Part shown: positions 2,736-46,224 of the stretch, piece by piece
How positions within the stretch are numbered: position 1 is the first letter of the stretch
Layout: every line of letters begins with the position of its first letter
Virus record (IMG/VR): IMGVR_UViG_3300025109_000009
Location: 1 to 53,982 of that record
Length of the DNA: 53,982 bases
Direction: 5' to 3' (one strand)
Source of the DNA: a virus
Program-made: the position numbers and the translations under genes
Notes under the pieces: generated by a model
The model's database searches: none
The model's input: the letters and a program-made list of their open reading frames with translations, nothing else
Told to the model about the DNA's origin: nothing

Positions 2736-3833
2736 CTATGTTTTTTTAATTCCAGCCAAACGCTGAAGTCGCGCTGAAAAGGGGTCTGTAGAATCTTTTT
2801 CCCTATTTCGTTGCGAGTGAATAAGCAATGAAGAATTTCTATTAACTGCTTCGCTAAGTGATTTCGGCACAGAACGTTTTTCTGTACTTCCCACGGTGCT
2901 TTGAAGTGTTTCATAAATAACCTTCGCTTCCTTAGTCGATTCGGCCTTAGAAATCGCTTCGACAATCTTTCTTTTTTGTCGCTCATTCAGGGAGGAATTT
3001 TCAAGTGCCTTGTTGATATACAAGAGTTTCGCATTTGAAACATTTACCATATCAACCTTCTCTTTTAAAATCATTACTGCTTCCATAAACTTGCTATTTT
3101 CTTCAGCAAGTTTTTCTTTTTGATCTGTGTTTTTCTTAAGGGATTCTTCTAATTCTTTGAGTCTCGACCTTAAGGCTTCGTTTTCTTCTTTGACTTCATC
3201 ATCACTTTCTTGGGCGAGAGCCATATCAGCATACTCTTCCATCTGACTCTGCGGTGTACCGGCGGAGCCGCTCATCTTGGGATCGATGTCGACTTTGATT
3301 CTTTCTAATATATCTTCCAACAAGGATTCATCAATCTCAATATCCATTTCCTCGTCTATCTCTTCCGACTCTTCAGTCAAAGGAGAAACTGCTTCGGGAG
3401 CAGCTGCTACAGCAGGTTCAAGGTTTTGAGCCACCGTTTCGTGAGAAACCTGATCAGGTGCGAGAACATCCGATGCGTCCTGTCCAGTTTCAGATTCCAA
3501 ATTGTCTATCTGTTGTCGGAGACCATCCAAATCCAATTGAACGATGTCGGTGTCGCTTACCGGTCCGGCAGAATCAGGAAGGTCTTCTTCGAGTGCAGGC
3601 GGGACCTGAGCCAAAGAAGGATCTGTCGCTGCCTCCATATCTGGTTCAACAGGAGAATCCTCCGCAAATTCGTCTTCTTCTGCGAAGGGATCTTCTTCCT
3701 GCTCTAGCAAAGCAGAAACCGCTTCCTTTATTTGATCTGAGTATCTTTCAACAACTATTGCTTCTGCATTTTTGATTGCTGATTCTTTGAGTGCTTTCGC
3801 ATCAACTATCGCTTGTTCTAACATGGATGACAT
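2736..3833 (-). CDS. 22: Prohead core scaffold protein, gp22-like
   Basis: 365 aa, very acidic. The N-terminus is helical (MSSMLEQAIVDAKALKESA); residues ~45-175 are Glu/Asp/Pro-rich and probably disordered; ~213-262 form a coiled coil (EENEALRSRLKELEESLKK); ~285-315 (ERQKRKIVEAISKAESTKEA) and the C-terminal DPFSARLQRLAGIKK are the parts I associate with gp22-type scaffolds of T4-like marine phages. The role is to form the internal core around which the capsid protein assembles, later degraded by the prohead protease. Position between protease and capsid genes agrees with the T4 order 21-22-23. Start: ATG preceded by AAGGGG; a second ATG three codons in is possible. Confidence 0.85.
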   Translation of the reverse strand: MSSMLEQAIVDAKALKESAIKNAEAIVVERYSDQIKEAVSALLEQEEDPFAEEDEFAEDSPVEPDMEAATDPSLAQVPPALEEDLPDSAGPVSDTDIVQLDLDGLRQQIDNLESETGQDASDVLAPDQVSHETVAQNLEPAVAAAPEAVSPLTEESEEIDEEMDIEIDESLLEDILERIKVDIDPKMSGSAGTPQSQMEEYADMALAQESDDEVKEENEALRSRLKELEESLKKNTDQKEKLAEENSKFMEAVMILKEKVDMVNVSNAKLLYINKALENSSLNERQKRKIVEAISKAESTKEAKVIYETLQSTVGSTEKRSVPKSLSEAVNRNSSLLIHSQRNREKDSTDPFSARLQRLAGIKKT

Positions 3834-3910: not shown

Positions 3911-4093
3911 TTACTCTGCTTTAGTGCGGATGCGGATTGTTGGAACGCCCCTGAAACCCAGTATAAATGGGGGTGGCTGCAGATTTTCTTTTGTGTCTGC
4001 TCCCTGTTTTGTGGCTATCGGGGTGTATTGACGTTTTACGTCAAAAGTTTTGATTATGTAATCTGATGATTTTTTAATATTAGACCTTGCCAT
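3911..4093 (-). CDS. Small basic protein, 60 aa
   Basis: I place the start at the ATG at 4093 because AAGGAG lies 6 nt before it and the gene then no longer overlaps its upstream neighbour. The longer frame to 4159 has no such site. The product (MARSNIKKSSDYIIKTFDVK..., ending RGVPTIRIRTKAE) is soluble and basic with no known motif. It lies between the 129-aa gene and the scaffold gene, in the head operon, so a minor capsid or neck role is possible but unproven. Confidence 0.7.
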   Translation of the reverse strand: MARSNIKKSSDYIIKTFDVKRQYTPIATKQGADTKENLQPPPFILGFRGVPTIRIRTKAE

Positions 4094-4103
4094 GATAGTC
4101 TCC

Positions 4104-4493
4104 TTAAAAAGTTGAAAGCAAGGCGTAAGCCCTGTTCCCTTCAGAACCATCATTGGCAACAGTTACCCTGATTTTATCAACACCTGCAATCTCAATTATT
4201 CTAGTCATGGCTGCAGCGACGATAATGGACTGGGTGCCAGAGCCCGGCCCGCCGTCGGCGTCTACCGCTTCAACCAACTCGGACCACACACCTGTGCCGT
4301 GATAATAAACCTCTACCTTGGTAATGTTAGCGGTACCATCACAAACAAGATGTAAGAATCTTTGATTTTCTGTAAAATATGCGGTAGTGCTAGTAATATG
4401 TGTAGTACTGCTTGCGCCGTTTACATTCTTTGGTCTGCGGGTTCTACCCCAACTTGCATGGGTATGAAATCCCGAACTTGTACTTTGTGCCAT
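4104..4493 (-). CDS. Small beta-rich head-operon protein, 129 aa
   Basis: ATG with AAGGAG 8 nt upstream. The N-terminus MAQSTSSGFHTHASWGRT is Ser/Thr-rich and polar. The rest alternates short beta-type strands (FLHLVCDGTANITKVEVYYH, SIIVAAAMTRIIEIAG, IRVTVANDG) with Gly-rich turns, as expected for a single compact beta domain. No catalytic motif. The composition resembles small phage head decoration or fibre proteins. Neighbours are the S21 gene upstream and the 60-aa gene downstream, both within about 12 nt, so all are co-transcribed. Function inferred from context only. Confidence 0.7.
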   Translation of the reverse strand: MAQSTSSGFHTHASWGRTRRPKNVNGASSTTHITSTTAYFTENQRFLHLVCDGTANITKVEVYYHGTGVWSELVEAVDADGGPGSGTQSIIVAAAMTRIIEIAGVDKIRVTVANDGSEGNRAYALLSTF

Positions 4494-4504: not shown

Positions 4505-4738
4505 TTAATTATTAAACTTAGCATTATGCTTGTTTGTTATTTCGCGAGAAACTTTTAACTTTCTCTCACGTTTTCTCTTTCTCTTAACTGAAGGCTTTTC
4601 AAAAAATCTTCTTTTCCTAACTAAATCCAAAATCCCATTTTTCTTAACTTTTCTACAAAACTTTTTAATTAATCTTTCGTTTTCACTAGCATACCTAGTA
4701 TTCGCTTCGACTAACACATGAATTGGTCCTTTTGACAT
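4505..4738 (-). CDS. rpsU: Ribosomal protein bS21 homologue, phage-encoded
   Basis: 77 aa, the usual size of bS21 (about 60-75 aa). The central part RLIKKFCRKVKKNGILDLV followed by RKRRFFEKPSVKRKRKRERK aligns with the bS21 core (ALRRFKR...EKAG...RRREFYEKP...RKRK). The EKPSVKRKRK block is the clearest mark. A ~15-residue tail (VSREITNKHNAKFNN) goes past the conserved core. bS21 sits on the 30S platform near the anti-Shine-Dalgarno end of 16S rRNA and helps initiation; phage copies are known from aquatic phages, including pelagiphages. The gene lies inside the head operon (GAGGG site before the ATG; 13 nt from the upstream gene), so it is probably made late and could favour phage late mRNAs by entering host ribosomes. 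That last step is inference. Confidence 0.88.
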   Translation of the reverse strand: MSKGPIHVLVEANTRYASENERLIKKFCRKVKKNGILDLVRKRRFFEKPSVKRKRKRERKLKVSREITNKHNAKFNN

Positions 4739-4751
4739 TACGCCCTCACTT

Positions 4752-5162
4752 TCATAATAACTTTGTCCACGCTTTTCCGGCGACCGACAAAAGTCCGTCT
4801 ATATTAACCCCGGGGTCACCAGGGGCATAGGAAGATAGCGGACTCGATGGGGTGGGAGAACCTCCGACAGACCCACCTTTGGACAGCGGCTCTGTACTTT
4901 CGAAAACATCTACTCCGTTATAAGCGTCCTTTGATATCGCTGCAAATAATTTCTTCTTTGTTTCTTTTATCTTTTTGCTTTTTCTCTCTTCTAACATCCC
5001 GTCACTTGTTCTCGACTCAACAATTGGTTGAGCTTGAGGCGTTGTAAGCCCACCTACAACTTCCGTGATTATACCAGACAGCACCCCCTCTTCGAAGATG
5101 ACTTCCTTTATGCATTGTTTAATCAACGGTTTGAGTATTTCTCTTAATTCGCTCTTCTTCAT
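4752..5162 (-). CDS. Conserved head-operon protein of unknown function, 136 aa
   Basis: The first ~40 residues are helical and amphipathic (MKKSELREILKPLIKQCIKE, then VIFEEGVLSGIITEVVGG). The start recalls the KxxLxxIIKEE-type leader seen in many small marine-phage proteins, including the 63-aa protein at 16483-16674. The middle is basic (ERKSKKIKETKKKLFAAIS) and the C-terminus Pro/Ser/Gly-rich (GGSVGGSPTPSSPLSSYAPG). It lies 3 nt after the prohead protease gene. Position and the leader-like helix suggest a prohead core or internal head protein, in the place where T4 has small core genes, but this is a guess. Confidence 0.7.
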   Translation of the reverse strand: MKKSELREILKPLIKQCIKEVIFEEGVLSGIITEVVGGLTTPQAQPIVESRTSDGMLEERKSKKIKETKKKLFAAISKDAYNGVDVFESTEPLSKGGSVGGSPTPSSPLSSYAPGDPGVNIDGLLSVAGKAWTKLL

Positions 5163-5165
5163 AAT

Positions 5166-5759
5166 TTACTCTTTAATGATGCTGTTCAGCAATCTGTTAA
5201 TCTTATCAGCTTTTGTAAAAATATTTGATCTTTCTTTGGCTTCTGTCACCATAAAGGCACCAGGTGTCGAAGGATCAGAAACCATATCAAAACAAATCAA
5301 TTGAAAATCGTCTTCCACTATCGTTAACCCATTCTCCTGCCTTGTCGAACCCATTCCTCTAGAAGAAATACCAAGAGGGATGCGATTTTGAACAAGATTT
5401 CGAAGAATGTTGCCAGAAGGAGTGTCGAGGACTTCTATCTTTCCCATACACTTGTTACCATCCATATATATATTTGTCACCAGGTGCGAAACATTTATCA
5501 AATTCACAACTGAAGTATCAGGATGATCTAATTCGCCCAATGCTCTTCTCTCATCTACCATCTTGCGATAATTATTCACTTCTCTCTCTAAGATGGACTG
5601 GGAATAAACTCTATCGTTATGATTCTTGGTTTCGGCCATTTGCATAACGCCCGATAGAATTATAGCACCATCGGCGACGCGGCGTTTTTCATCTTCCGTA
5701 AGAAGGTCTTGGCATATGCCACCTTCACAAAGTTCATAATATTCTCTCAATAGTTTCAT
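5166..5759 (-). CDS. 21: Prohead core protease, gp21-like
   Basis: 197 aa serine protease that matures the capsid by cleaving scaffold and capsid propeptides. From the chosen start, the conserved parts are HNDRVYSQSIL (47-57), GELDHPD (75-81) with catalytic His79, and LGISSRGMGS (129-138) with the nucleophile serine at 132 or 133. These match the T4 gp21 family His/Ser pattern. A TTG 17 codons further upstream would give a longer form, but the ATG at 5759 has AAGGAGAG before it and overlaps the stop of the 33-codon ORF as ATGA, so I prefer it. A likely substrate site (LLRE-A) is visible in the capsid protein. Order protease-scaffold-capsid agrees with T4. Confidence 0.92.
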   Translation of the reverse strand: MKLLREYYELCEGGICQDLLTEDEKRRVADGAIILSGVMQMAETKNHNDRVYSQSILEREVNNYRKMVDERRALGELDHPDTSVVNLINVSHLVTNIYMDGNKCMGKIEVLDTPSGNILRNLVQNRIPLGISSRGMGSTRQENGLTIVEDDFQLICFDMVSDPSTPGAFMVTEAKERSNIFTKADKINRLLNSIIKE

Positions 5760-5857
5760 GTCTCTCCTTGTGCGGGGGCCACCCGCTTCGACCAGGATCC
5801 CTTGCAACAATTAGCTACTGGGCGGATATACCACCTTATAGTGACAAACGGTTTCAC
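5756..5857 (-). CDS. Putative 33-aa microprotein coupled to the prohead protease
   Basis: A GTG at 5857-5855 is preceded by a perfect AGGAGG with 6-nt spacing. This is one of the best ribosome sites in the window, and otherwise it would have no gene to serve. The frame runs 33 codons (M-KPFVTIRWYIRP..., two adjacent cysteines NCCKGSW, basic, ending APAQGET). It stops at TGA overlapping the protease ATG as ATGA, the same coupling used elsewhere here. It fills the only gap between the membrane protein gene and the protease. T4 has small core-protein genes (67, 68) in this place, but I see no sequence match. The main doubt is length. Confidence 0.55.
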   Translation of the reverse strand: MKPFVTIRWYIRPVANCCKGSWSKRVAPAQGET

Positions 5858-5860
5858 AGT

Positions 5861-6214
5861 CTACCTCCTAGTGCGCACGCCGTTATTGCGATTTAATGAG
5901 CGCGTTTGAATCTTGATTCCCTTATGATCTAACCTAACTCCATCGTCGCCAAATAACATATTCAAAACGTAACTTGTTCCAGAACTGAGACAGCCCAGGA
6001 GCATACCAGTAACAAGATAATTATCAAAAGTAAATAGTGTTGTGTAACCGTTTAGAGCCCATAAAAGAACGCCCACCCAGAAACCCACACACATAGGGCA
6101 AGATATGAGTTCCTTCATAAATCCCCTAGTGGGGCGGAGCTTGTCCAGTATTTTTGCATATACCAGAATTTGTGTTAACCCGTAAGAACAAAGCACAAAA
6201 TATAGTAGATTCAC
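5861..6214 (-). CDS. Three-helix inner membrane protein, DUF1360-like
   Basis: 117 aa. Three hydrophobic segments are visible: ~2-22 (LLYFVLCSYGLTQILVYAKI), ~38-58 and ~66-88. The sequence LISCPMCVGFWVGVLLW at the start of the second helix resembles the Cys-X-X-Cys plus GFWVG signature of small DUF1360-type membrane proteins; this is recall. The C-terminus is basic (RSLNRNNGVRTRR). It starts at GTG with GAGGAT upstream and overlaps the preceding stop as GTGA. A membrane protein between portal and prohead protease could help dock the prohead initiation complex at the membrane, the job of gp40 in T4, but no similarity to gp40 is seen. Confidence 0.75.
   Translation of the reverse strand: MNLLYFVLCSYGLTQILVYAKILDKLRPTRGFMKELISCPMCVGFWVGVLLWALNGYTTLFTFDNYLVTGMLLGCLSSGTSYVLNMLFGDDGVRLDHKGIKIQTRSLNRNNGVRTRR
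6031..6038 (-). promoter_or_regulatory. ACTATTTA element inside the membrane-protein gene (copy 5)
   Basis: The minus strand reads ACTATTTACTTTTGATAA, a near match over 16 nt to the site before the scaffold gene (ACTAATTACTTTTGAG). It is ~170 nt before the 33-codon ORF and could serve the protease and downstream genes, or be a chance coding match. Confidence 0.25.
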
Positions 6215-6819: not shown

Positions 6820-7636
6820 CTCTTTCTAACTCTTCTACTAAACTTTGTATTTTCAGCACCTCTTCGATCATCACTATGTCGATCTCTTTGTCTCTATAGC
6901 TCTCTAAAAGGCTCAAAACCTTTCCTGTTTTGGCTTCCATTTCTTTATCAGAAGAAACTGCCGAATGGCTCTCCATGGAGCGTATTTTTTCCTTAAGAGT
7001 CCCTATCTCTTCATTCATGATGATTTTTAACTCTAGTCCGCCATCTACAAAAGATGTGACGTACTTTGTCAACAACGTTTTTTGACTCTCATTGAGCTTG
7101 TTTTGGTACCTTTCATTAAATCTTTTCACGAAAGACTTATAAACTAGGTTATCTATGGGATCCTTTGTTTCTTTTTTCTCGGGCTCTTTTGTCAATGCCT
7201 CAACAACCTTCCCTTCCAAGAGAACCTTGTCCTTGATTCCGATAGAGTCATTAAACATCGAATAAATACTGGCCAGGTTCTTGTAATTTGGAACAAAATT
7301 AGCGAAAACAGAAGTACCCAAAGTCTTGTTTATCACCCTGATGAGAGAACTCTGCTCTCTGAACACTTCTTTTTTGCTTATCTTGGAATACGCAATTTTC
7401 GCTTCAATGATCATCTTCTCTGCTAAGTCTCTTTCCAGTCCATGAGTTTCATAAAGTGGCTTAAAAACCTTAAGCTCTTGCTTCAAAGAAGAATCTTTCG
7501 CAAAGTGCTCTTTAATTATCCCCTTTATTATCTTCATTTTATTTTTATCGTTCTTGATAGCACTTTTTGTCAACTCTCGAACAAGTGCCTCGTAAACAAA
7601 TGCGGTGTTTCTTTTCTTATTGTGTTTTAGTCTCAT
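6809..7636 (-). CDS. Head-operon helical protein of unknown function, 275 aa
   Basis: A TTG at 7654 would give six more residues, but GAGGGG lies correctly before the ATG at 7636, so I use that start; it overlaps the portal gene by 20 nt. The protein is Lys/Glu-rich and almost wholly helical: a basic N-terminus (MRLKHNKKRN), then VYEALVRELTKSAIKND, a central SSLIRVINKTLGTSVFANFV, and a heptad-like C-terminal third (GTLKEKIRSMES ... KVLSLLESYRDKEIDIVMIE). It lies directly after the portal gene, in the place of T4 core genes 67/68, and a scaffold-type or portal-binding role is plausible. No family match recalled. Confidence 0.75.
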   Translation of the reverse strand: MRLKHNKKRNTAFVYEALVRELTKSAIKNDKNKMKIIKGIIKEHFAKDSSLKQELKVFKPLYETHGLERDLAEKMIIEAKIAYSKISKKEVFREQSSLIRVINKTLGTSVFANFVPNYKNLASIYSMFNDSIGIKDKVLLEGKVVEALTKEPEKKETKDPIDNLVYKSFVKRFNERYQNKLNESQKTLLTKYVTSFVDGGLELKIIMNEEIGTLKEKIRSMESHSAVSSDKEMEAKTGKVLSLLESYRDKEIDIVMIEEVLKIQSLVEELERDDG

Positions 7637-9581
7637 TCTTTCCCCTCTTTTCAAGATCTTGAATCAGTTTCCTCACATCAGAATTAATTTCTGTGATTAA
7701 AATTTCTTCCCTATCATAAGTAGATTCCTGTTCTTCGTAAATGCCCCTAGATAATGAAGTCAACCCTGCTAAACTATCAAAACCCTTCAAGGTGTTCCTT
7801 CTAGTCGACGAAGCCACCTCTCCTGCGTACTGACCCTTGTAAGAGCGTTTACGTGCGCCAGAGGGTCTCTTATCGACCTTAGACGCGGTCTTAGCATACT
7901 CTTTTCTACGATCCGACTTCGTTCTACCTCTCTTGTCTGTCCAGATGTCGTCGTCTCTTTTACCAGGAGCCGCTAACAACATGGAGTCATCTTCTGGGGG
8001 CTCTTCGCCGCCTTCTTCACCTCCAAGTTCTGGCTCCAACCCGGGTGATCCCTCACCGCCAGGTTCGAATTCGGAACCCTCTATATCATCCATTCCGGTT
8101 GACGGCATTATTTCTGCCTGTTCCATTTCTCCAGCTGTTTCTAGCACAGCCTCAAATTTACGATCATAAAACATTTCACGTTGATTCCTGATGAATTCTT
8201 CTTCAGAAAGATTGAACACCTTCGTGGCTATCCACCTCTTGCTAAAGAATCCTTCAGTTGCTCCAGAAGCAGTTTCGAACTTAACCTTCCAGTGCTCTAG
8301 CTCTTGCAATTCTGCTATCTTTGATGGATTTGCTAGCTTCAAAGAAAACGATGTTAAATCTTCTCCGCGATATCCCAGTATATAAAGGTGCACTATTCCA
8401 ATTTTTTCAAGCTCAGTTATAACAGACCTCTGCAGCCTGTTGACGGTTCTCGCGAATCTAATATCTTTTTGAGCCAAAGTTGTTTTATCTTCTTCGGACC
8501 CTTCGGTTTGTGAAAGATAAGATGGCGGGATCTTCAATGCTGAAAATAACTTGTCTCTTAAGTACTTAACATCATCAATGTCTCCCGTATATGTCCCACC
8601 AGGCAAACTCTCAACCCGAGAAGAAGCATCCCCTCGCACTGGAATGAAATAATCTTCGTCTACAGACATCGGATTATAGCGGAGGTCGACACGACCGGTG
8701 TTTGGATCGACGACTTGGTTCCTCTTCATCTGAGTCATGACCTTTTGCATATATTGCTCTACGTCCTGTGGCGGTATACTGCCGACATCGATATAAAAAA
8801 CTCTTCGTTCGGGCGATCTAACAATGCGATAGGCCATCATTGCGTCTTCCAAGAGGGTTAATTGACGCCAGATTCTTCGTGCGGGTTCTAGTGCAGAAGT
8901 CCCATATGGAGCGTGCTTATCATTTCCCAATATTCTGAAATGTGCCATTTGCCAATTCTCAAAAGTCATTCCTGCGGAATTCCACTGAAACTGGACGTAA
9001 TTTGGATTAGTTTTGTCTTCCCCTTCTAGCCTTTCTACTTCTTGGGTCGGCAAACCAATAACACTTTGGATACCAATGGTTTCATCCATATCCAAATATA
9101 AGAAAAAGTCCCCATACTTGCACATTGTGCGACACCAACCAAATAAATTAAATTCCAAATTTAATATATTGTGATACAAAGAATCTAAAATACTTTTTAT
9201 CTCGTCATTAGGGCAATCAATAGTGAGTAGCGGTTGCAAGTTGGTAGATGTCGTCATCTCGTCGGCATATATATCCAAAGCTGAAGCAATCTCTGGTGTG
9301 TATTCCATTTGGTCAAAATCAACATATCGCTCCAAACGATTTTGATTTTGCATGACGTTCGCCATCAAGTTATCGAAAGGGTTGTATTCCGTCTTTTTGA
9401 ATTGTTGCCCACTGGCAGAGCGAAATCTGCGAGAGTACTTATCTAGTTGTCTTCTTCTTAATCTTCTGGCGGTTTGTGTTCTGTAAGTTACTAGCGGTCC
9501 AGATAACAATTTTGTTAACTTCTTAAAAAGTTCGTTTTGGCTATTTACAGGATTTTTTGTATTTTTGTTTTTTCTGGCCAT
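7617..9581 (-). CDS. 20: Portal protein, gp20-like
   Basis: 654 aa; forms the dodecameric ring at the head vertex through which DNA enters. Recognisable parts: PEIASALDIYADEMTT near residues 95-110, LFGWCRTMCKYGDFFLYLD, APYGTSALEPARRIWRQL, RSPERRVFYIDVGSIPPQD, and RGDASSRVESLPGG followed by LRDKLFSALKIPPSYLSQTE, all typical of T4-type portals. The C-terminal ~130 residues are unusual: a Gly/Glu/Pro-rich acidic linker (ELGGEEGGEEPPEDDS) and then a Lys/Arg-rich stretch, which look like an added flexible tail. Start ATG with AAGGAT upstream; 5 nt after the terminase stop. T4 length is 524, so the extra tail explains most of the difference. Confidence 0.95.
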   Translation of the reverse strand: MARKNKNTKNPVNSQNELFKKLTKLLSGPLVTYRTQTARRLRRRQLDKYSRRFRSASGQQFKKTEYNPFDNLMANVMQNQNRLERYVDFDQMEYTPEIASALDIYADEMTTSTNLQPLLTIDCPNDEIKSILDSLYHNILNLEFNLFGWCRTMCKYGDFFLYLDMDETIGIQSVIGLPTQEVERLEGEDKTNPNYVQFQWNSAGMTFENWQMAHFRILGNDKHAPYGTSALEPARRIWRQLTLLEDAMMAYRIVRSPERRVFYIDVGSIPPQDVEQYMQKVMTQMKRNQVVDPNTGRVDLRYNPMSVDEDYFIPVRGDASSRVESLPGGTYTGDIDDVKYLRDKLFSALKIPPSYLSQTEGSEEDKTTLAQKDIRFARTVNRLQRSVITELEKIGIVHLYILGYRGEDLTSFSLKLANPSKIAELQELEHWKVKFETASGATEGFFSKRWIATKVFNLSEEEFIRNQREMFYDRKFEAVLETAGEMEQAEIMPSTGMDDIEGSEFEPGGEGSPGLEPELGGEEGGEEPPEDDSMLLAAPGKRDDDIWTDKRGRTKSDRRKEYAKTASKVDKRPSGARKRSYKGQYAGEVASSTRRNTLKGFDSLAGLTSLSRGIYEEQESTYDREEILITEINSDVRKLIQDLEKRGKNETKTQ

Positions 9582-9586
9582 TTAAT

Positions 9587-11173
9587 TTATCCTTTGAAGA
9601 GCCACGGAAATTGTTCGTATTGACTCTTTGTTTTCTCTATTTTATCAAATATGCTCTTATTTTTATAGCTATTTTGACCTGGAATTGTAGTATCCAGTCT
9701 AGAATTCGTTACAATCATAGAATCCAGACAAGCTTTTTTATATTCCGTGTTTCTCTGATTTTCCACCAATGCAGTATCCCTTATCCAACAACCAATTGAG
9801 CATGCCATAACCAGATCATCATTATAGCTTCTCATTGCTTCAGGTTTGCCGTTATTCCATATAAAAGTCTTCATTTCATTAAGAAGACGCGCAGAATATA
9901 TTTTAATTAGTTTGTTCCTTACGAATTCCTCCATCTTAGCGATAACTAATGGTCTAGTTTTAGAAGAAGTGGTGAATCCTGCGACGGCATTTGATTTATT
10001 TTCTGCCTGTATCTGGTCTATGTATTCATGGGTAGATTTTATCGAGTGGTAAATATTGGGATAATTCTTTTCTCTAAGCTTCTCTAAAACAGAATATCCT
10101 ACCGAATTGTTTTCCACTGTTATCATGCAGCTGCCGTACTCTTTTCCAGCATTCAACAAAACATCTGAAAAGACATCGGGCGTTACTTTTCCCTGATATT
10201 CTGCGATGATCTCCATTGTCGCCAACTTAATAAGATGAAAAACTGAATAGTCTCTTCCATCACCTCGTGCCACATCGGCACTTATCATATAATCACTATC
10301 GTGCTTATACTCTTCCCAAATCCAATAATTTCTATCAAACCCAGTTCTATACTTGGGTTCTCTTACCATGTTTTCTACCCAGGCAATGTCCTCTCCATGA
10401 AAGACAGTCTCTCCAGACATATTAAAATTACATTCTAATTCTTGTGCGATTTCGCGTCTGGACATATTTCTCGTTTCTTTTTCAAACCACGTTCTATCTC
10501 TATCCGGGTGCCTATCCCACGGAAGTTTAGTTGATTTAAAATCGTTGATTGACTGCTCCGCCTCCATATAAGCTTTGTGAAACCAATTGCCAACACCATT
10601 TGGTGTTGATAGGGCGATACAGCGGCCGCCAGTAGAAAGAGTGGGATACAGCCCAGTCCAAAGATCGTCTAATCCGTCTACGTGAGCGGCCTCATCTACA
10701 ACCAATAAAGAAAGAGCCTCTGACCGTCCAGCGTCACCACTAGTTGAAGATGCCTTTATTTGAGACCCGTTTGACAACTCAAAAGAAGTTCTGTTGTCAA
10801 TTGTAACGTGTGCGATAGTTAACCATTCTGGTATATTTTTTAAAATATTTTTAACTTTTTTCACTAAATTGGATGCAGTTGAGAATTTAGTTGCGATAAC
10901 GAGAACGTTCTTTTCTCTATGGAAGAGCATCATCCAAACGACATAAGCAGCAGTTATTGTAGATATTCCTAATTGTCTGGCTTTTAAAATGACGTTAAAA
11001 CGATTGTCTAGGAAGTCCTCAACCAAATCTTCTTGAAAATCATATAAATGAAACGGAATTAGCCCTTTTTGTGGATGGGTAATGCGAGCGTAGCTATTAA
11101 TGAAATAAACAGGATCCTTGCCACACTTAACAATCTCCCGCATTATTTCCTTCTTGGTTAACTGGAAAGACAT
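9587..11173 (-). CDS. 17: Terminase large subunit, gp17-like
   Basis: 528 aa packaging motor and headful nuclease. ATPase part: adenine-binding region FHLYDFQEDLVEDF (~41-54), Walker A variant KARQLGIST (64-72), Walker B SLLVVDE with D160-E161, and coupling motif ALSTPNG (~187-193). Nuclease part (RNase H fold): D300 in MISADVARGDGRDYS, E354 in MITVENNSVGYS, and D452/D453 in SYNDDLVMA, matching the acidic triad of T4 gp17. It is a little shorter than T4 gp17 (610 aa). No small terminase subunit is recognised next to it; the 199-aa gene upstream is in the right place but shows no helix-turn-helix. Confidence 0.96.
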   Translation of the reverse strand: MSFQLTKKEIMREIVKCGKDPVYFINSYARITHPQKGLIPFHLYDFQEDLVEDFLDNRFNVILKARQLGISTITAAYVVWMMLFHREKNVLVIATKFSTASNLVKKVKNILKNIPEWLTIAHVTIDNRTSFELSNGSQIKASSTSGDAGRSEALSLLVVDEAAHVDGLDDLWTGLYPTLSTGGRCIALSTPNGVGNWFHKAYMEAEQSINDFKSTKLPWDRHPDRDRTWFEKETRNMSRREIAQELECNFNMSGETVFHGEDIAWVENMVREPKYRTGFDRNYWIWEEYKHDSDYMISADVARGDGRDYSVFHLIKLATMEIIAEYQGKVTPDVFSDVLLNAGKEYGSCMITVENNSVGYSVLEKLREKNYPNIYHSIKSTHEYIDQIQAENKSNAVAGFTTSSKTRPLVIAKMEEFVRNKLIKIYSARLLNEMKTFIWNNGKPEAMRSYNDDLVMACSIGCWIRDTALVENQRNTEYKKACLDSMIVTNSRLDTTIPGQNSYKNKSIFDKIEKTKSQYEQFPWLFKG

Positions 11174-13094: not shown

Positions 13095-13281
13095 GTTTCC
13101 ACTGAACGGCCATATCTACCAAAGCTTGAGTCCCTATGTATGCTAGAGTGATCGCTGTCCAGTTATCACTAGTAACCACACCATAAGCACACAATACTGT
13201 TGCCGTTACCCAAGCAAGAAATTTTCTAGATATAAATTTTTCTGTATATTTATCCGCGAAAGCCTTTATCTGTGTCACCAT
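13060..13281 (-). CDS. Holin-like small membrane protein, 73 aa
   Basis: Strong start: ATG preceded by AGGAGGG with 5-nt spacing. Two hydrophobic segments, ~22-37 (RKFLAWVTATVLCAYGVV) and ~43-58 (AITLAYIGTQALVDMA), flank a short turn (TSDNW). A basic N-terminus (DKYTEKFISRK) and a polar Gly-rich C-terminus (KHGPGGDNGS) complete a class-II-holin-like layout. Small proteins with ISRK...(V/T)AT...G...W...A.AY.G.Q are often annotated as phage holins. It heads a cassette with two coiled-coil membrane proteins. No endolysin gene is adjacent; the only wall-related domain seen is the peptidoglycan-binding-like segment of the giant protein at 53168-53312. Confidence 0.65.
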   Translation of the reverse strand: MVTQIKAFADKYTEKFISRKFLAWVTATVLCAYGVVTSDNWTAITLAYIGTQALVDMAVQWKHGPGGDNGSVI

Positions 13282-13290
13282 GATACCCTC

Positions 13291-16200
13291 CTATACGTTG
13301 ACATGAGCAAAACCAGATTTTCTCTCGATACTTATTTGCATGTCCACACAGTCTTTGAGGGTATCCAGATGGGAAATGAGAAGCACAGTTTTAAAATACC
13401 CCTTAACCATATCTAGAATCCTGACAAATCCTTCCATGTTCTCTTCATCCAAAGCAGTACCAGGTTCGTCTAATATAAATAGGTCCGATTTTGGTAAACT
13501 CGACACAGTTAAGAAAGCTAAACGAATAGCCATTGAAGCAATCGTCTTTTCAGCTCCGGAGCCCATTTCTAATGGTCGCGGGTCGTGTTTTGGATGCTTT
13601 ATGAAGATATCCAACTTTTTATCATCGTTTTGAATAAAAATCTCAAACTCAACAATATTAGTTAATATTTTAGCGATCTCCTGATTTATGATGGGTAGCC
13701 GCTCCTTAATAATATCATACGAAATACCGTTTGCATGAGAACAAGTCATAAGAAGATCATAAGCTGCAAAGTCTGTTGCTAACGTTTTGTATTCCGCCTG
13801 TTGTTCGCCTAATAGTTTTAATCTTTCCTCTAGAGAGCCGTGAGATTTGTGAAAAGACAAGGTATCCTCATAACATTCTTTATATTCCTTCTCCTTTTTG
13901 GAGAGGGACCTTTTAATTTCGTTTCTCTTTTTTATTAGAATTTCTAAATTTTCAATCACCTCGCGATTGTCTTCGTAATCTTTTTCCTTTTCCAAAAGAT
14001 CTTTCAAAAAAACATTTGCCTGGATTAGGGCAGTTTTGCCTTTGGCCATTTCGACTTGCAAATCTGCCATTCTATTCGCAGTAATGTTTTTCTTGTCTAA
14101 AAGCTGATTGTATTTGTCAATATGCTCTTCTATCTTCTTATAATCAATCTTTCTTATCTCTGCGCCTGTGTTATTAATGCTAATAGAAGTATCCTTTATG
14201 CTTCTTTGCGAAATCTGTATTAAATCAATCGCCTTGTAAGCATCCTTTATAAACTTACAATGAGAGTACTCAGAACCACATGGAACCTCCTGTAAGAGTC
14301 TCTCTTTGTCGTGATATGTGTTCAGCTTTTCCGACTTCCGCTTCATCTCCGAAAGAAAATTAGAGAGCTGCTCTTCCTTTTCTTCGTAAAGGTCCTTTTG
14401 CTCCAAACATTCAGCAATATCAAAGTCCTTCAAAAAATCTTCCATTTTTAAATAAAGTGATTGATCATCCTTTAGCTTTTCCTCCTTAATATTTTGGTTA
14501 TTTGAAATACTTTTAATATTACTTTTTTTATTTCTTATTTTCTCCTTCAAAGAAACAATATCAATTATTTCCGCCGGTACAGAATCTATCTTTTCCTGCA
14601 AAGACTTTATTTCTTCCCCCATATCTGCGGTGTCTTCTTGGAGGGTCTCGCAAATTGCCTTATTCCTAACAATCGCTAGTTCACTTTTGATAATCTTATT
14701 CTTTACTTCCTCTATCAAAGATTCATAATCTATATCTTCTAGCTTTTTAAGAGCACCTTTAGTCAGAGAGCTATCCTCTTTTGCCATCTTAAATTTCTTT
14801 TCAAATATCTCCAAGTCAAGGAACTTCGCTAAAATTTCTTTTCTTTTTGTAGACCCCTCGTTTATAAACGCAAGAGAGTCCAGTTGGCTTGACATAGATG
14901 TCAGCAAAAAATCATCAATTGACCCAAAATATTTTCTAACATTCTTGTCGGTATCCTGGCGGGATGTGCCGTTCAAGCTTGTTACGTTTCCCAGCAAATC
15001 CACAGAACTAAATTCTAAATTTGTTTTAGCTTCCAAGGTTTCTTCGCCCTTAAGTTTTTTAATATACTTCTCAGATGTTCTTTCAGCAGAATAAATCGTG
15101 TTATCAATCTCTAGAGTGGCGCGTGATAAGCACTTGTCCTTATTTTGGTTAATAATGTTAAGATTTTTACGAACAGACTTCGAAGAAGAATTGTAAAGAG
15201 CGTACAAGAGAGAATCAACAATTGACGACTTGCCTGAAAAGTTTTTTCCAAAAATCCCAACAATACCCTCTAATTTCGAAAAATCTATCCTGTTACCTTC
15301 GCCGTAATTAAAGAGATGATCCCATTCAAGCGACTTTAAACTCCAGCTTATATTGCGATAAGTGTCTTCTTGGCGTTCAATATCTTTATTATACTTTGAG
15401 TTTAAGTCCAGCACCCTGTTTAACACTTCTTCTGAAACTTGAAAATCTTTAAGATAATCCTTTATTAAGTCCTCTTGTGTCTTTATGTCTCTCAGGTCCT
15501 TCTTCGCAAATCCCGAAGCAGATTCTAAAGATATCTTTTGCCCAGCGGCGCGGTTAAGATAGGTCACAGATTCTGGATTGTGTCTGTACTTAATGATTTC
15601 TACCGCTTTTCTCATCTTATCCAAAGAAACATTATTATCAGAAACGATTCTTAAACGTGCTCCAGACGGAACGCTTATCTTTCTAGGCAAATTGCCCTTC
15701 TTGGTAAGAGGAATGGTAATGAACGGCTTTGGATTATCAAATGCAATATGACGTGTAGTAAACGTTTCTTTATCTTCGATGTCCCAAAGTAAATATCCCT
15801 TATCTAGTGATTCTCCAAAGTTCTGCTGGACTGTTGATCCAGCATACCATACACGACCCTCCTTGTCTAGATTCTGCGTCTTGTGGATATCGCCAAGCAA
15901 AGCGAAATCAAAATTATCAAAGATCCCAATATCATGATCACCCCCCAATGTCCAGTCTAAGTCAGTCTTAGACTTATCTATCGCCCCATGATAAAGAGCA
16001 ATATTAATCATTTCAGTATTCGTCGGTTTTATCCAATTTTCCTCATCAAAAACAGAAAGAATATTTAAACAAAAATTCTCATCCAAAACAACTTCTCTGG
16101 CATTCTTAATTAGGTGAAGATTGGGAGATTTTAATGCTTTAACAATCGGAGTTAAAGCATCTTGCCTACTACTATTACGTAAATTGCCGTCATGATTCCC

Positions 16201-29505: not shown

Positions 29506-30464
29506 TAGTCACACACCTGCTCGTCTTCTATTCCGATGTGTCCATAAAAAGTTTCTCCTTCAAAATCTTCTGGTATGCCCAGCCCAGCATGCTCATCAAA
29601 CAAAACCTCTACATATGTCGATAACTCGTCTCTCATGGTTGAATCAAAGTTGGCATCCACCTTTAATGATAAAAGTTTTTCTTCCTTTACCGTTGTTGTT
29701 CCTTCTAGAAACTCTTCCTCATCCTCAACCAAAAAAAATTCAACATCGAATTTATCATCAGAAGTGGAAACATTCTTTTCTAATACTTCTAAAGTGATAC
29801 TCTCAGTATCAATAGTTAATTCATATCCGTCAACAAATCCTAGAACTTGACCCATACCGTCCTGCTCAAAGTATTCATTCATTGTTATGGTATCTCCGAC
29901 TTCTACCTTTTCAGCCTCCATGTTATAATCAACAATCAAGTTTATCTGTGGTCTTCTCATTCCTATGTTGGGACCAGAAGAGCTTAATTGTATCGGGCTC
30001 TCAAATTCTTGATCATTCAAGCTATAAACGCACCATGCAGGAGCGTATTTGTTGCCCACCTCTGAATTCCCTAGGATGTTTCTCATCAACTTCCTATCAT
30101 CCGGAACCATTGCGGTGTCGTTGACATAGTCTTTCCCATAAAGATTACCAGCGACCCTCTTTTGGGATGCTCCTATGTTTCGAAAAAGATTTGCCAACAT
30201 AATATGCTTGTTTGTTCTGGTGACACGAGTTTCCGCTCCCTCGTGTTCGTACAAGGGTCTCATCCTTACTGTGTCGTTCTGTATCCTCTCAAACGATGTT
30301 TTTGCGGTTTCATTCACATTCTCTCCGTAAGACGCATCATAAAGAACCTCGTCATCTGAGAAGGCATAGAATTCTGGCTTAAATCGCCCCTTAGAAAGAA
30401 GATACTTCCCGTATTGAGTAAGCTGAACCTCCATCACTTCTTCTTTTTTATTGAAAAACGACAT
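29505..30464 (-). CDS. Virion protein sharing N-terminal domain with the 337-aa protein, 319 aa
   Basis: The N-terminal region (KKEEVMEVQLTQYGKYLLSK, GRFKPEFYAFSDDEVLYDAS) is a diverged copy of the domain that opens the 337-aa protein at 21321-22334. Next comes MRPLYEHEGAETRVTRTNKH, then a central beta part (NIGMRRPQINLIVDYNMEAE) and a strongly acidic C-terminal half (VEFFLVEDEEEFLEGTTTV; EVLFDEHAGLGIPEDFEGET). It is tied by TAATG overlaps to the giant protein gene upstream and the 1333-aa gene downstream, so the three are made together and probably assemble together in the baseplate. Confidence 0.78.
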   Translation of the reverse strand: MSFFNKKEEVMEVQLTQYGKYLLSKGRFKPEFYAFSDDEVLYDASYGENVNETAKTSFERIQNDTVRMRPLYEHEGAETRVTRTNKHIMLANLFRNIGASQKRVAGNLYGKDYVNDTAMVPDDRKLMRNILGNSEVGNKYAPAWCVYSLNDQEFESPIQLSSSGPNIGMRRPQINLIVDYNMEAEKVEVGDTITMNEYFEQDGMGQVLGFVDGYELTIDTESITLEVLEKNVSTSDDKFDVEFFLVEDEEEFLEGTTTVKEEKLLSLKVDANFDSTMRDELSTYVEVLFDEHAGLGIPEDFEGETFYGHIGIEDEQVCD

Positions 30465-33400
30465 TATTCATCCTCTTTTGGGAACAAATTCTTGAAGTCG
30501 ACCTCTTGTTCCCCTTCTTCGTTCTCTTGTGGCACCAATCCAGCAACAGCTCTTGCGGTTTGTTCTGCCTGTTCCGGTGTTAAGGGTTCTACTATGTCCC
30601 TATCCTTCGCAAAAGACACTCCAGCATCAATTTTAACTAGTTCAACCAACGAGAAATAATCATAAGGCCAGTTGTATCCATATTCAAAAATATCGTTTTC
30701 AACGGATAACTCCCTTTCAGGGTGACCGACCGGTAGTTTGTCTCGTGATATCTTCTTAAAATAGTTTGTTTCAGCTCTTTGTTTAACTTTGAATACCATC
30801 CATTTTACATTTTTGTTAAAGCTGCCACCTAAGAGATCTGTTGCGCCTCCCAAATCATGAGAAACTACAGATTCTGCTTGCAGTGTATCATCATCATTGT
30901 TATGAAAGTCGTTCAATGCAACATCTGGCGGGAGATTCTGCCACATATACGCCAAATCCGACTTAGACAAAGTATGCTCAAATTCAAAGATGTACATTGC
31001 AAATGGGTGCACAAATTTTTCTTCCTCATTGTTATATTTTAAGAAATTCATTTTTGGAGGAATAACATATTTAAGCATCTTTCCTACCATTGTTTGAATA
31101 CTTGTCCGGGATGATATGGGGTTTGCCACGACTTCTGTGGTTGTCCCCTTGTTACGACCGCGACCGTGTCTAAGTCTTCGTCCCTCAACAGTATCAATAT
31201 ACGCTTTCTTGTAATTTGGATACCCCTCGTTCTGGACAGCCTTATATACCTCGTTCTTTGGAATGTTAAAGAACTTTCTGTTGCCACTCTCATCTTCCAC
31301 AAACGGAATCGCAACAACCGCTTCCGATACTTTACGCTCTTCTGGCAATTGTCCGATAGAAAGGGCTCTTTGCTCCTTTATTTTTCGCTCACCTTTTCTA
31401 AAATGAACACCTAATAAACTTGACAAATCTTCAGACCCATCAATTGGTGGCATAATTTCTATAAACGAACTGGGATCATCATACGCTCCTGTTTGGTGCC
31501 ACATCCCTTTCGCAGTGGTTATATAATGAGGCTTTGCTTTTGCAGGGGTGGTCTTACGAAAATCCATATTTGGGGTTTCCCACTTACTCTGTATAACCCA
31601 CGATTTTCGAAGAATGTCCCTATCTCTTTCTGTTCCCTCAAATATTGGAACCAGGCTTCCTTGTGCCAAATCCATACCATAAAAACTAGCAGACAATTGC
31701 ATCGCATGTGTTTTATTTAAAGATGCAGTCGCGGCATTGATACTTTGAAAATCAGTACTGATGCCTGGACCCGACACATAATCACTATTTGTAATTCCTG
31801 AAATTCCAAAATTGTTTTTTGAACCAGTACCCTGAATATACCTATTATAGTTAATGGTTGCGGTGCCCAAACTATTTTGTTCGGTTATCCTGTTAAGAAC
31901 ATCTTCTATGGTCTCATATGAGACGCCAACGGACGGATTGAATATATATTCAACCTCTGCATAATTGTCATAATGAGGTGGAGTATACGGGGCGAATCCA
32001 TGACCTACGTAGTTCTGTGACCGATTCAATCCATGATCACCAGGTCCTGCGTTGATTGGTGGTCCAAATGCAGCCGCACGATTATACATCGGAAAGTCCT
32101 GCGTATTGGGACGATTTAACCTCAATCGGAACTTGTATGTTTTACTCGGATCTACAGCAGTCTGTAACGTATCTTCGGATGCGATAGTTGTAGTATGTCC
32201 CCCCTCCAAAAAGAATCTTGAACTTTCAGCAAAAAAATTGTTAGCTGCCTTCGAGTATGTCGTGTCACTCAAGACCCGCATTCTCGACAAACTAAAACTA
32301 GCGGTCAACATAGAAGAGGTTATCGGTGTTTGGTGTGTCGCCCCCCAGTATGTTTCCGGAACCACAGTTGAAAGATGGGGTAGGTGTCGAGCACCAGTAT
32401 CTGCCGATCCAGATGACCTACTTCTCAAGAATGAGCATGGCTGTAAACTGGCACTTGGGTGTGGCTCCATTTCGTAAAAGGTGAACCTCTCGTCTAATCT
32501 TGCAACATTTCTGGCTGTGCCAATATTTTTAACTGTATTTGTGACCAAGCGGGTTGGATCAATAATTACCTCAAACGGAAGTCTTTCAACACGTTGGACG
32601 CCCCATGTACCAAAATTTCTTCCATAATCTCCCTGAGTCCAATAAGACGTTGCTTCCGCCAACTCTGGGTCTGCTCCTTTCGCCTGATGTTCCCCCCAGC
32701 TGGCAGAACCGATGCGTGGTATGCCGAAATCAGATGTTTCGTTAAACGCGGAACCAGTGATGTAGGAAGGATATTGAAAAGCCCCTGTTAGTTCCATGTT
32801 TGTGTCTACGCCGTTTTCTCCCAACAATGTAATTCCATATCCAGTTTGGGCACCAGCTGACCAAGCATCTGTAAATCCTACAAATTTGCCCTTAGTCGTG
32901 GTCTCGACTCCAGCCAAAGAACCTTTGCCGCCGCCGACAAGAGTCTTCCTGTACAGAGGCATAGCATGATTATTTAATCCAAGATTGTTTGTCATTGTTA
33001 TAGAACCAGAAGTTCCAGCCATGACATAACCAGTGTCGTTTCCCATTCGGAACCACCCTATTAAGTTATCCACATGAGGCTGTTCCACACACAAATCTGG
33101 TCGCCAGGGTCCACGCTGCCTGACGCCGCCGCCGAAGAGTCCTCTAACAGACTCGTCCGTCAACTTTGTATTGAAAATACTGACTTCAGAAATAGCAACT
33201 TCCATTGCGTTGAGAGCATGATTAGTGTTGGTGTGCCCATATCTGTGATTTCCTATGGTACAATTTCCGGTTGCTGTTGTGCTATGACCGTCCATGTTAA
33301 CGGACGTTTCCGTTAAACTCCCGGCGGTGCCAGTTATTCCCGCAGCGGTAGCAGCCCCTTGAGTTTCGATTTGTACGCCGTCGATATAAAAATCTGGTGT

Positions 33401-36400
33401 AGATGTATCAAATTTCTTTGCGACGGCGACATGGTACCATTTATCTGCAGTTGTTAAGGACTTATATGGCTTTGTCCACCACTTTTTATAATTTGATGCA
33501 TCGGTGTACATCGATAGCATCAGGCGGCCGCCATGTTTTGTAAAATGAATACCCTCTGTAGCATTATCATCATCCTTGAATACCAACAAGCTTCCGGAAG
33601 TATCAGTGTTGCCGTCTGCATCAGGATCTTCATCAAAATAAACCCACATCGATATACTTAATCCGGAATTGGCAGCGGATGAATTTTTACCATGACTTCC
33701 AGATATAAGCTGCGCCCATTCGCTGGCTTGTCCTATATTAATATGATTGTTGTCTTGTTTGTCGAATGTCGTACAAAACAAATTAAACTTTCTATCTCTG
33801 TTGGGAGTAAAGACAGGATAATCAACAGCAATGCCAGATTTTATAGAATTGTAGGCGATTCCTGGAGCGTAAAAAGGTTGTAAAGCTGTTCTCCAACTTC
33901 CATAAGGCTCGTATCCTCCCTTCGTCTGCCCGAATTTTTCAACCGCAACATTAGTTTGTGGACCGTATGATTCACTAAACATAGTTGCTAACTGCAAAGT
34001 TCTCTGTGCTGGATATATTCCTTCATATGGAAGAAACTTTTTCATCGCTTTACACCTGAGAGTTAGACTGTTCTCTGACATTGCCAGTTCTTTATGCCCT
34101 TCCTTCACAATGTCAAAGTATTTTATAAAGTCACTATGTCCGTAGACTTTGAAAAAATCTGATTTACTACTATCAGCAAAATCATCCAGTGCTCCGGTCA
34201 TCTGCAAAAAATCTGCCTGTGGGCATGAAAAATAGGGATCCGCTGCGGCTCTACCAATATAGTTTGGCATTTCCTCACTAATTCTATATTCAGGAACTAT
34301 AGAATAATCTTTTCCAATTAATCTCATCTGCATCGCGTAATCATCATAATCCTTATAATTAAAAGGATCGCGTCCTGCCATCTCACCAGCTTCCCACTTT
34401 GCTGCACCAGCCAAATAAGTGCTAGTATTGGAGGACGCCGATAGAAAAACGGGGCTCGTGTCGAGGTAGCCGATCATGATTTGACCATCGATGGTGAAGT
34501 CAGAATATTCATCCGCCAAATAATCACCGCCGACATAAGAATTGTCCCAAGTGCCCTTAAAATGTAGACTAAGTTTATTGGTGCTTGATTCTGCTTTTGC
34601 AACTTTTTTAAATATAGAATTACTATTAAGCCCATCTTTGACAGCTGATGCGAGTGTAGTTGTTGTATAGCTACTTTCCGAAAGGGGGATCCATATTTTG
34701 TTAGCTCCGACGGCGATGTCAGCCGCATTGTTTACGCTTGCAGTCTCGGCAGTCCTACAAAAATATATATAATGCACCACGGCAGAGGCTTCAGGAGGAT
34801 AAAACTGTATGTAATATGATGTATGATCGCCGTCGCTTGCGCCGCCCCAGTATTTTTCTGTAACTGTCGTATTAAATGTTAAATTAAATATATAATTTTC
34901 TTCTGGAAACTTTCTAGCATACATGGCTGAAGCGGTTGGATATGCGCCCAAGCCAACTCCACCTGAACGAAACAAACAATAAGAAGACATTAATTCACCT
35001 TCTCCGAAGGCTCCCGGGATGTCTGTGCCCAGAGCTATTTCGTTAGATGTTCCAAAATTTGTTTGTGCATCGAGTGGCCACATGCTGCTAGTTAATCCAA
35101 TGTGTAATCCCTGAGAGTTGTGCTTATCTATAGTTCGCCTGTCCGCTCTCTTTGGCTTCCACCAGTCGATGATAAAATTTTCTCTTCCTCTAACTCTGTT
35201 TGAATAAGAATTGGAATCTCTCGGATATATTGTTTCAGAATATAGCGACTGAATAATGTCCGCTCCAATTTTATCTCTCAACGGAGTGGCTGATGCTTTT
35301 TCGTCTATTTGTAAAAAGTTTACCAGTTCCGGGTTTGAAAAAGTGACTAAATCGTTTCCGTGCGTAACCTTTCCCCCTACAGAAATTTGGGTACCACCAG
35401 CAGAATGAGCGTCCCTCCAGGACCCATACGAATTGGCTAGTCCAGCTACAGACTTGCCTATCATTGTTGTTTTGAGGGGTCCGAATTTTGATGTTACTGC
35501 AGATTCTGTAAAGCGATATCTTTGAGCACTAATTGTCCTGCTTGTTCTTGCTCTCTGGTGGTCTATATTATCTGGCCAAGAATAATCACCTCTAGTAAAA
35601 TAAGCAGGCGAGAATGAGTTTACTAGTGCGTTATCCCTTTCCACAATAGGTGCCATTATGTTGTCCCTTCGAAGCTTTCTAGCAACTGGATGCTGCCCTG
35701 CTCTCAGTTGCTTCCAAGAAGGATAACCGTATGGACCGTTTCTGTTTGACAAGATCGCATTTAAGAGATGTGCGTCCCACTTAAACACATCTGGCGACAG
35801 CGTGCCGTGCGCTACATTAGAGCGAAAACGTGCGCCGTCATCTCGGGCTGCTAAATAATTTACTCTCGAATAAACACCGCCAACAGATTTAACACTCACA
35901 TCATCATATCCAAGCAGATTATAGCTTGAAGATATCGGCTCGACAACTATAAAATTTAATCCAGCAAAATCTACTGGCTCGAATCCCACCAGCGATGAGC
36001 CTCCACCAAGGACATCAGGTCGAGTAGTGAGGACCCTGCCGTTAGCACCATAATGACCAAAGCCCATGTCACTTGCAGAAACAAACCCTGGAGAGTCAAA
36101 ATCGACGGCGTTTGCTTCATTGGTTTCGTAAACCGTCTGATCCGATTGTGCTTTTGGGTATGTAAACTTAGATTCTAGTCTTGCATAACTGCAGGTAGTC
36201 TCTGTTGTAGAATTCTTTATCCAAGCATACCCTAGATCACTCTGAGGTATCTGATGTTGCACAAACTGGTTGTCGTGTTTTATTCTGCATTCCACTCCGG
36301 ATTCCCAACTTGCAGTAGCGACGTATCGAGGGTTGTGATAAACCTTGTGATACGATGCGGTCGGACTAGAGGCGGTTATTGAACTGTTACTAACATGTCC

Positions 36401-45828: not shown

Positions 45829-46224
45829 TTAAGTAGTTTCGGGCATACTTATTTCAAGAATATCCGCAGTATTCAATCCCGGTACCGTATATTGTATTTG
45901 TATAGACAATGGTACGCCACTTGATATAAAAGTGTTGTCATCCGGTCCTCTAATCGCTATCCCCAAAATCTTTATAAATGGTAACCACTTCCCCACCTGC
46001 GATGTGATCGTTGTTCTGATATTGTCGTAAGTATGTTCGTTGGCTAATTCAAATAAAAACCTCTTTAGACCAACACCGAAGGTCGGTTCCATAACTCTCT
46101 CTCCGGGTGATGTCAAAACGACCATTTTAAGATTCTGTTTTACTGCTTCTAGAGTTGTCTTGTTTAGGGCATATCCATCTTGAGCGTCGCGCTCTAATGG
46201 CAATTTTACTGATATACCAGCCAT
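45829..46224 (-). CDS. 25: Baseplate wedge protein, gp25 / W-like
   Basis: 131 aa, the same length class as T4 gp25 (132). The family signature TSPGERVMEPTFGVGLKRFLFE-type segment lies at ~38-59; before it AVKQNLKMVVL, and after it the pattern TITSQVGKWLPFIKILGIAI, as in GPW/gp25 proteins. gp25 links the wedge to the tail sheath and is needed to start sheath assembly, although the sheath gene is not in this window. Very strong GGAGGAG site; 2 nt gap after the giant upstream gene. Confidence 0.95.
   Translation of the reverse strand: MAGISVKLPLERDAQDGYALNKTTLEAVKQNLKMVVLTSPGERVMEPTFGVGLKRFLFELANEHTYDNIRTTITSQVGKWLPFIKILGIAIRGPDDNTFISSGVPLSIQIQYTVPGLNTADILEISMPETT

Follow-up and report, generated by a model that had tools for sequence, protein, structure and literature searches.

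A ribosomal protein bS21 gene conserved among the head genes of a clade of uncultured phages

Introduction

A ribosomal protein gene lying among the genes for a virus head raises the question of what its product does there: whether it enters host ribosomes while the structural genes are being expressed, as the original prediction for this locus held, or serves some other end. The gene considered here is found in IMG/VR virus record IMGVR_UViG_3300025109_000009, of which positions 1 to 53,982, the whole stretch of 53,982 nucleotides, were analysed (the window). Late expression together with the head genes, followed by entry into ribosomes, is plausible for this phage, and the combination has already been proposed in print for other phages.

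Identity and predicted fold of the gene product

The open reading frame (ORF) list of the window includes a minus-strand frame with an ATG start and 77 codons at exactly 4505–4738. The coordinates and the 77-aa product agree with the original prediction, which did not give the strand; a plus-strand reading of the same positions runs into several stops. An SD-like GTGAGG is located a few bases 5' of the ATG. The protein matches Pfam PF01165 (Ribosomal_S21) with an E-value of 1.3e-12 and 47.6 bits, above the curated Pfam cut-off of 27 bits for this family, with residues 21–60 aligned to positions 11–50 of the 55 in the profile, and it also matches PHROG 21469, "ribosomal protein S21" (E 6.2e-8). 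The bS21 identity that had been read from the letters alone is thus upheld by a profile search of the family, and this ORF is the single bS21 match in the whole window. A profile of our alignment A1 matched 38 distinct PDB sequences, all of them named S21 or bS21 and including plastid and mitochondrial proteins. Judged by its sequence, 4505–4738 encodes a phage bS21 (rpsU-like), with a C-terminal tail at about residues 62–77.

An AlphaFold2 model of the protein, made with an input alignment (A2) of 42 sequences, has a mean pLDDT of 84, a pTM of 0.48 and three helices, at 17–34, 36–44, and 49–76. Foldseek returned six matches in the PDB, the top four of which are chains of the small ribosomal subunit. 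Two of these, 5mmj_u and 9h90_u, are named S21 in the PDB profile search; the other two, 8cai_U and 8cgr_U, are bacterial 30S chains whose length and chain letter lead us to take them for bS21. The model superposes best on 8cgr_U, with a TM-score of 0.90 on the target and an rmsd of 0.6 across 44 columns. The Foldseek E-values are weak (0.05–1.1, the lowest being 0.054), as may be expected with a short helical protein. Based on its best matches, the modelled fold appears to be of the helical bS21 kind. A bS21 of the Bacteroidia type would be expected to have an aromatic residue where F. johnsoniae has Tyr54. Residue 54 of 7jil_z, the place of this Tyr, falls on profile position 63, at the uncertain end of the local match; at this position and with the same uncertainty of alignment, the residue is V in the window protein and L, V, or R in most of the phage set.

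The head-gene cluster

On the minus strand, the gene order is terminase, portal, three genes, protease, p4752, bS21, p4104, p3911, scaffold-like, and capsid, with intergenic gaps of -38 to +77 bases from the terminase to the capsid gene and of 13 and 11 bases flanking bS21. The cluster encodes a large terminase (9587–11173, minus strand; Pfam and PHROG), a Gp20-like portal protein (7617–9581, minus; Pfam E 6.4e-80), a prohead core protease of the Peptidase_S77 family (5166–5810, minus; Pfam E 6.5e-26), whose start was called as TTG and may in reality be further in, and the Gp23 major capsid protein (MCP; 962–2722, minus; Pfam E 1.7e-73), which has the strongest SD of the run. The location of bS21 among capsid assembly genes, as originally described, is therefore correct, and it lies within ten genes of the protease, capsid, portal, and terminase genes in the window and its relatives alike. 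A weak Pfam RNA_pol match within the large terminase frame (9587–11173; E 3.7e-5; 23.2 bits, the cut-off being 22) is most likely spurious.

The gene upstream of the capsid gene (2736–3833, minus) had no match in Pfam or PHROG, and the scaffold-like role that we give its product comes from position only, although this position is conserved. The immediate neighbor of bS21 on the upstream side, at 13 bases, encodes p4752 (4752–5162, minus; 136 aa), a conserved protein with no assigned function, with the N-terminal sequence KKSELREILKPLIKQCIKEVIF and the C-terminal sequence GVNIDGLLSVAGKAWTKLL. On the downstream side, p4104 (4104–4493, minus; 129 aa) begins after 11 bases and is variable among relatives; it is followed by p3911 (3911–4093, minus), a small protein of 60 aa present in some relatives. 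A terminator-like hairpin with a T tail, predicted by a consensus scan, lies directly after the capsid gene (916–937, minus). This tight, co-oriented run would fit one late transcript; its status as an operon, which the original prediction took for granted, we infer from spacing and orientation.

Occurrence and order in relatives

Nearly the whole window matches part of a 190,183-base record, in two stretches with identities of 98.5% and 99.0%. A segment of about 650 bases (36587–37236), inside a 3,871-aa ORF (30464–42079), has no megablast match in this record.

An initial scan with bS21 identified 16 contigs, and a profile scan identified 26 loci. Where relatives reach far enough, bS21 shares the strand of its neighbors, with the protease or p4752 gene on one side and the genes for the scaffold-like and capsid proteins on the other. 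We also sampled relatives independently of bS21, by scans with the capsid protein and with the protease, taking the best 80 matches of each. Among the best 80 protease matches, 65 loci have 2 kb or more of downstream sequence, and all 65 contain bS21 in the orientation of the protease. Of the 73 loci with 1 kb or more, 68 contain it; the five others, in which only 1.3–1.9 kb downstream is covered, have no bS21 within that distance, and in some relatives bS21 is up to 4.3 kb from the protease. Among the best 80 capsid matches, all 17 loci with the protease in view contain bS21.

When all scans are combined, including the best-80 scans with capsid protein and protease, bS21 is found in 107 of 175 distinct contigs. 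The remaining 68 are no clear absences, because 59 have a capsid gene but no protease and nine have a protease with less than 2 kb downstream. Fifty of the 59 protease-less contigs extend less than 6.9 kb upstream of the capsid gene. For the nine that extend at least 6.9 kb, the full records contain a bS21 match in seven cases (six above the cut-off) and a protease in five, and in each of the five protease-bearing records bS21 comes after the protease, in the same orientation; in two of the nine, neither bS21 nor protease was found. The strand of bS21 is the plus strand, that of the fetching query gene, in all 132 loci with a match, a count that includes duplicates and Microcystis phage Mel-JY01. 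Across 81 slots, a count that includes duplicate loci and loci fetched via bS21 itself, there is one absence, in Flavobacterium phage immuto, which has the head genes and no bS21 in the slot.

The upstream neighbor is nearly as regular: p4752 has a tblastn match in 102 of the 107 bS21 contigs, and in 98 no more than 120 bases separate it from the bS21 frame that follows. On the other side, p4104 is about 33–36% identical, or not found, in more distant relatives and is a fast-changing or swapped gene, while p3911 is 78–93% identical in several distant relatives where its neighbor p4104 diverges. Four relatives (L245, L199, L154, and L046) carry inserts of approximately 2.7–5.3 kb in the protease–capsid stretch, before or after bS21, with the flanking gene order retained. 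bS21 seems to have been settled in the head module for a long time.

Sequence evolution of the core and tail

Pairwise distances between bS21 proteins correlate with those of the protease (r 0.47; 73 taxa), p4752 (0.71; 72), the portal (0.61; 53), and the capsid protein (0.43; 34), p4752 having the strongest covariation of the four proteins tested. None of 2000 permutations for the protease, or of 1000 each for the other three, reached the observed r. These correlations indicate that bS21 travelled with the head module and was not often captured from hosts.

By its median pairwise identity, 36% compared with 68% for the protease, bS21 evolves fast. Pairwise dN/dS values are 0.05–0.21 in 15 of 28 pairs, the other pairs not being computable; apart from two, these 15 pairs are close to saturation at synonymous sites. 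On these values the gene looks to be under purifying selection. Across 81 distinct phage proteins (82 less one of at most 60 aa), the core positions F27, K32, and S50 are conserved in 100%, 99%, and 96%, respectively. Two other positions differ from the cellular proteins that we sampled, a set of 80 chosen by similarity to the query and mostly from Gemmatimonadota: E at position 47 is found in 100% of these versus 36% of the phage proteins, and P at position 49 in 100% versus 72%.

The tail of about 15 residues, which had been described as non-conserved, proved otherwise in close relatives: alignment A1 is gap-free over the final 15 residues, with clear similarity, in L008, L009, L010, L013, and L014, but not in L015. 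A tail motif composed after inspecting the tail sequences, [ERK][ASICV]T.{2,5}[KR][FY] within the last 24 residues, is found in 20 of 81 phage proteins versus 0 of 80 cellular proteins. As far as these sequences indicate, the tail is retained in part of the phage clade and not in the whole clade.

Translation and transcription signals

The original prediction had bS21 enter ribosomes at the time when structural mRNAs with strong AGGAGG sites are made. Among the 12 genes from the terminase to the MCP, the MCP gene alone is preceded by AGGAGG at normal spacing, so the generalization about strong sites fails. The second AGGAGG of the run (5864–5869) encodes the last two residues of p5861 and is some 50 bases ahead of the called protease start. 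Outside the run, AGGAGG occurs at normal spacing at 13287–13292, before the ORF start at 13281, and at 46234–46239, before that at 46224. In the window as a whole the hexamer is rarer than expected, with 14 occurrences versus a shuffle mean of 26.3.

SD energies were calculated with the anti-SD CACCUCCUUA, which we take to be the usual form and which may not be that of the host. The capsid leader (2722–2742, minus) contains AGGAGG and has an energy of -11.4 kcal/mol; over 126 relative contigs the capsid-gene SD likewise has a median of -11.4 and exceeds in strength those of the other head genes that we tested. Within the window, the genes ahead of bS21 have weaker SDs, whereas bS21 and the genes after it have strong ones. 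This step is not general, because the medians across relatives are -5.6 for bS21 and -11.4 for the capsid gene. In the 190 kb relative, with genes and starts called by script and all genes beyond 120 kb counted as late, SD medians are -5.6 kcal/mol for early and -7.05 kcal/mol for late genes (internal ATGs, -2.9), and the difference in SD strength between late and other genes has a p-value of 0.057 (42 versus 114 genes). Special SD use by late genes was rejected as not significant. The link that had been drawn between phage bS21 and late mRNAs with strong SDs is accordingly weak: it applies chiefly to the capsid gene, the SD of which is consistently very strong across relatives.

The motif TATAAATA, which we take to be the T4-type late promoter, occurs four times in the window versus 3.02 expected, with none in the head cluster. 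Sigma-70-like sites are not enriched (24 in the window versus 21.9 in shuffles), and terminator-like sites, at 13 versus 9.3 expected, are hardly above shuffles.

Host

In a genome scan, bS21 similarity pointed mostly to Gemmatimonadota, among the 80 matches retained out of 205. We rejected this as a host assignment, because the scan was seeded by short query motifs and its matches do not name the host. The window has no tRNAs and the 190 kb relative has two, which indicate no host. The SD-like leaders of the 190 kb relative do not suggest a host of the Bacteroidia type, in which the anti-SD is occluded.

Possible functions

We favor, with a probability of roughly 0.55, a reading in which a bS21 long resident in the head module is transcribed late and replaces host bS21 on the 30S subunit, favoring late mRNAs. 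The clade would be a large, uncultured one of T4-like phages, with bS21 long settled in the head module and most likely transcribed late in infection together with the neighboring head genes. The core of the phage protein would then sit where bS21 binds on the host 30S, beside the 3' end of the 16S rRNA, the loosely held host bS21 would be displaced, and 30S subunits with phage bS21 would favor the late mRNAs of the phage at initiation or keep their initiation going. This reading is preferred because of the Pfam match, the bS21-like model, the kept core positions, and the low dN/dS, together with the presence of bS21 in all 65 protease-selected loci with 2 kb or more downstream (among the best 80 matches), the distance covariation, and the tight packing. 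It also draws on other phage bS21 proteins, for which the accessible portions of Chen et al. 2022 (PMC9723584) and Mizuno et al. 2019 (PMC6375957) describe late expression and entry into 70S ribosomes, respectively. Against it count the activity of about 5% in E. coli given in the same portion of PMC6375957, the late-SD p-value of 0.057, the strand and operon difference from the phages of PMC9723584 as far as that portion describes them, the frequent changes at positions 47 and 49, and the near-saturation of synonymous sites. A stronger form, in which bS21 is obligatory in the head module and not an optional auxiliary gene, and in which the lineage-specific tail and p4752 tune a phage-type 30S to initiation on capsid mRNA, the only one of the cluster with a consistently very strong SD, we regard as doubtful; if true, every infection would end with a phage-type 30S population.

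The same conserved core, and the want of a clear SD signature of late genes, would also suit a simpler role, in which phage bS21 refills a loosely bound host pool during heavy late translation and leaves the choice of mRNA unchanged. Exchange of bS21 between ribosomes, discussed in the available text of PMC6375957, would make such supply feasible. We nevertheless consider it somewhat unlikely, as bS21 has diverged beyond apparent need (36% median identity versus 68% for the protease) and some members of the clade carry a tail that is absent from the sampled cellular proteins. Host shut-off, with phage bS21 poisoning host initiation, is very unlikely: with bS21 of a pelagiphage, the activity of E. 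coli ribosomes in vitro fell to about 5%, according to the available text of PMC6375957, but E. coli was a mismatched host in this test, and placement among head genes suggests an expression that would come late for shut-off and would halt phage synthesis too.

The regular position between protease and capsid genes could instead reflect a small basic protein that is packaged in the head or aids assembly, perhaps delivered with the genome for early action on ribosomes, and the accessible part of PMC9723584 does suggest encapsulation of bS21. We think this quite unlikely for the window protein, which retains the core positions of the ribosomal type, and the related phage immuto has head genes and a slot without bS21. 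A site of the (L/I)xE type, which is presumably the kind cut by T4 gp21, is visible by eye as LVE in the N-termini of the window and L008 proteins, but not in those of L009, L010, L013, and L014. The locus shows that bS21, far from being a stray host gene, can belong stably to the core of a phage head module and share its orientation, and the clade supplies many natural bS21 variants for asking whether phages retool ribosomes late in infection.

Comparison with known systems

The closest published counterparts are the bS21 phages of freshwater Bacteroidetes described by Chen et al. (PMC9723584). In the portions of that paper available to us, bS21 is located within the head region, RNA evidence for its late expression is given, a late takeover of ribosomes is proposed, and in 388 of 900 published bS21 phages one or more of six core structural genes lie no further than ten genes from bS21. 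The window resembles those phages in the proximity of bS21 to terminase, portal, protease, and capsid genes, and we count as a further likeness their conserved, function-unassigned neighbor, described there as having a tree resembling that of bS21. In contrast to the window, in which bS21 is on the strand of the head genes, it is on the opposite strand in clades a–e, and the same portions state that the bS21 region is not transcribed as one operon; late timing is thus not simply transferable from those phages to this clade. They also report that bS21 is no longer seen at terminase similarity below about 70%, whereas in the window clade it persists next to proteases with only about 44% identity to that of the window, although this is a different protein and measure and the most distant contigs were fetched via bS21 itself. 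Our literature searches did not find the co-oriented, regular arrangement of the window clade described; the 900 phages of Chen et al. may include it.

Among cultured or named phages, Microcystis phage Mel-JY01 (PP395634) is similar in having a protease, a small gene, RpsU, three genes, and capsid all on one strand. Its RpsU is homologous to the window bS21 by profile, its terminase is 44% identical, and its bS21 is without the tail motif. Homology of p4752 to the Mel-JY01 gene upstream of RpsU was rejected (profile probability 1.6). Pseudomonas phage PA5oct (L307) has an annotated ribosomal protein S21 with a weak tblastn match to the protein of a relative; for 7 kb in each direction, that gene is surrounded by ClpX-, Hsp20-, and ClpS-like and metabolic genes and not by head genes.

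Pelagiphage HTVC008M, like the window, provides a myovirus bS21 (for the pelagimyophages, see the accessible part of PMC7029224), and its protein was found in E. coli 70S ribosomes, which kept about 5% of their activity in vitro, according to the available text of PMC6375957; viral ribosomal protein genes are there described as being under purifying selection. Replacement of the host protein by phage S21 is proposed in the accessible portion of PMC7162821, which describes N-terminal extensions, and phage bS21 and anti-SD control are discussed in that of PMC9976891. Thus, from what these four sources (PMC9723584, PMC6375957, PMC7162821, and PMC9976891) state in the portions available, both the kind of system and the hypothesis are already known. 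The window bS21 is a real, conserved further example, not a new kind of system; what is new here is its regular, co-oriented conservation across a large uncultured clade.
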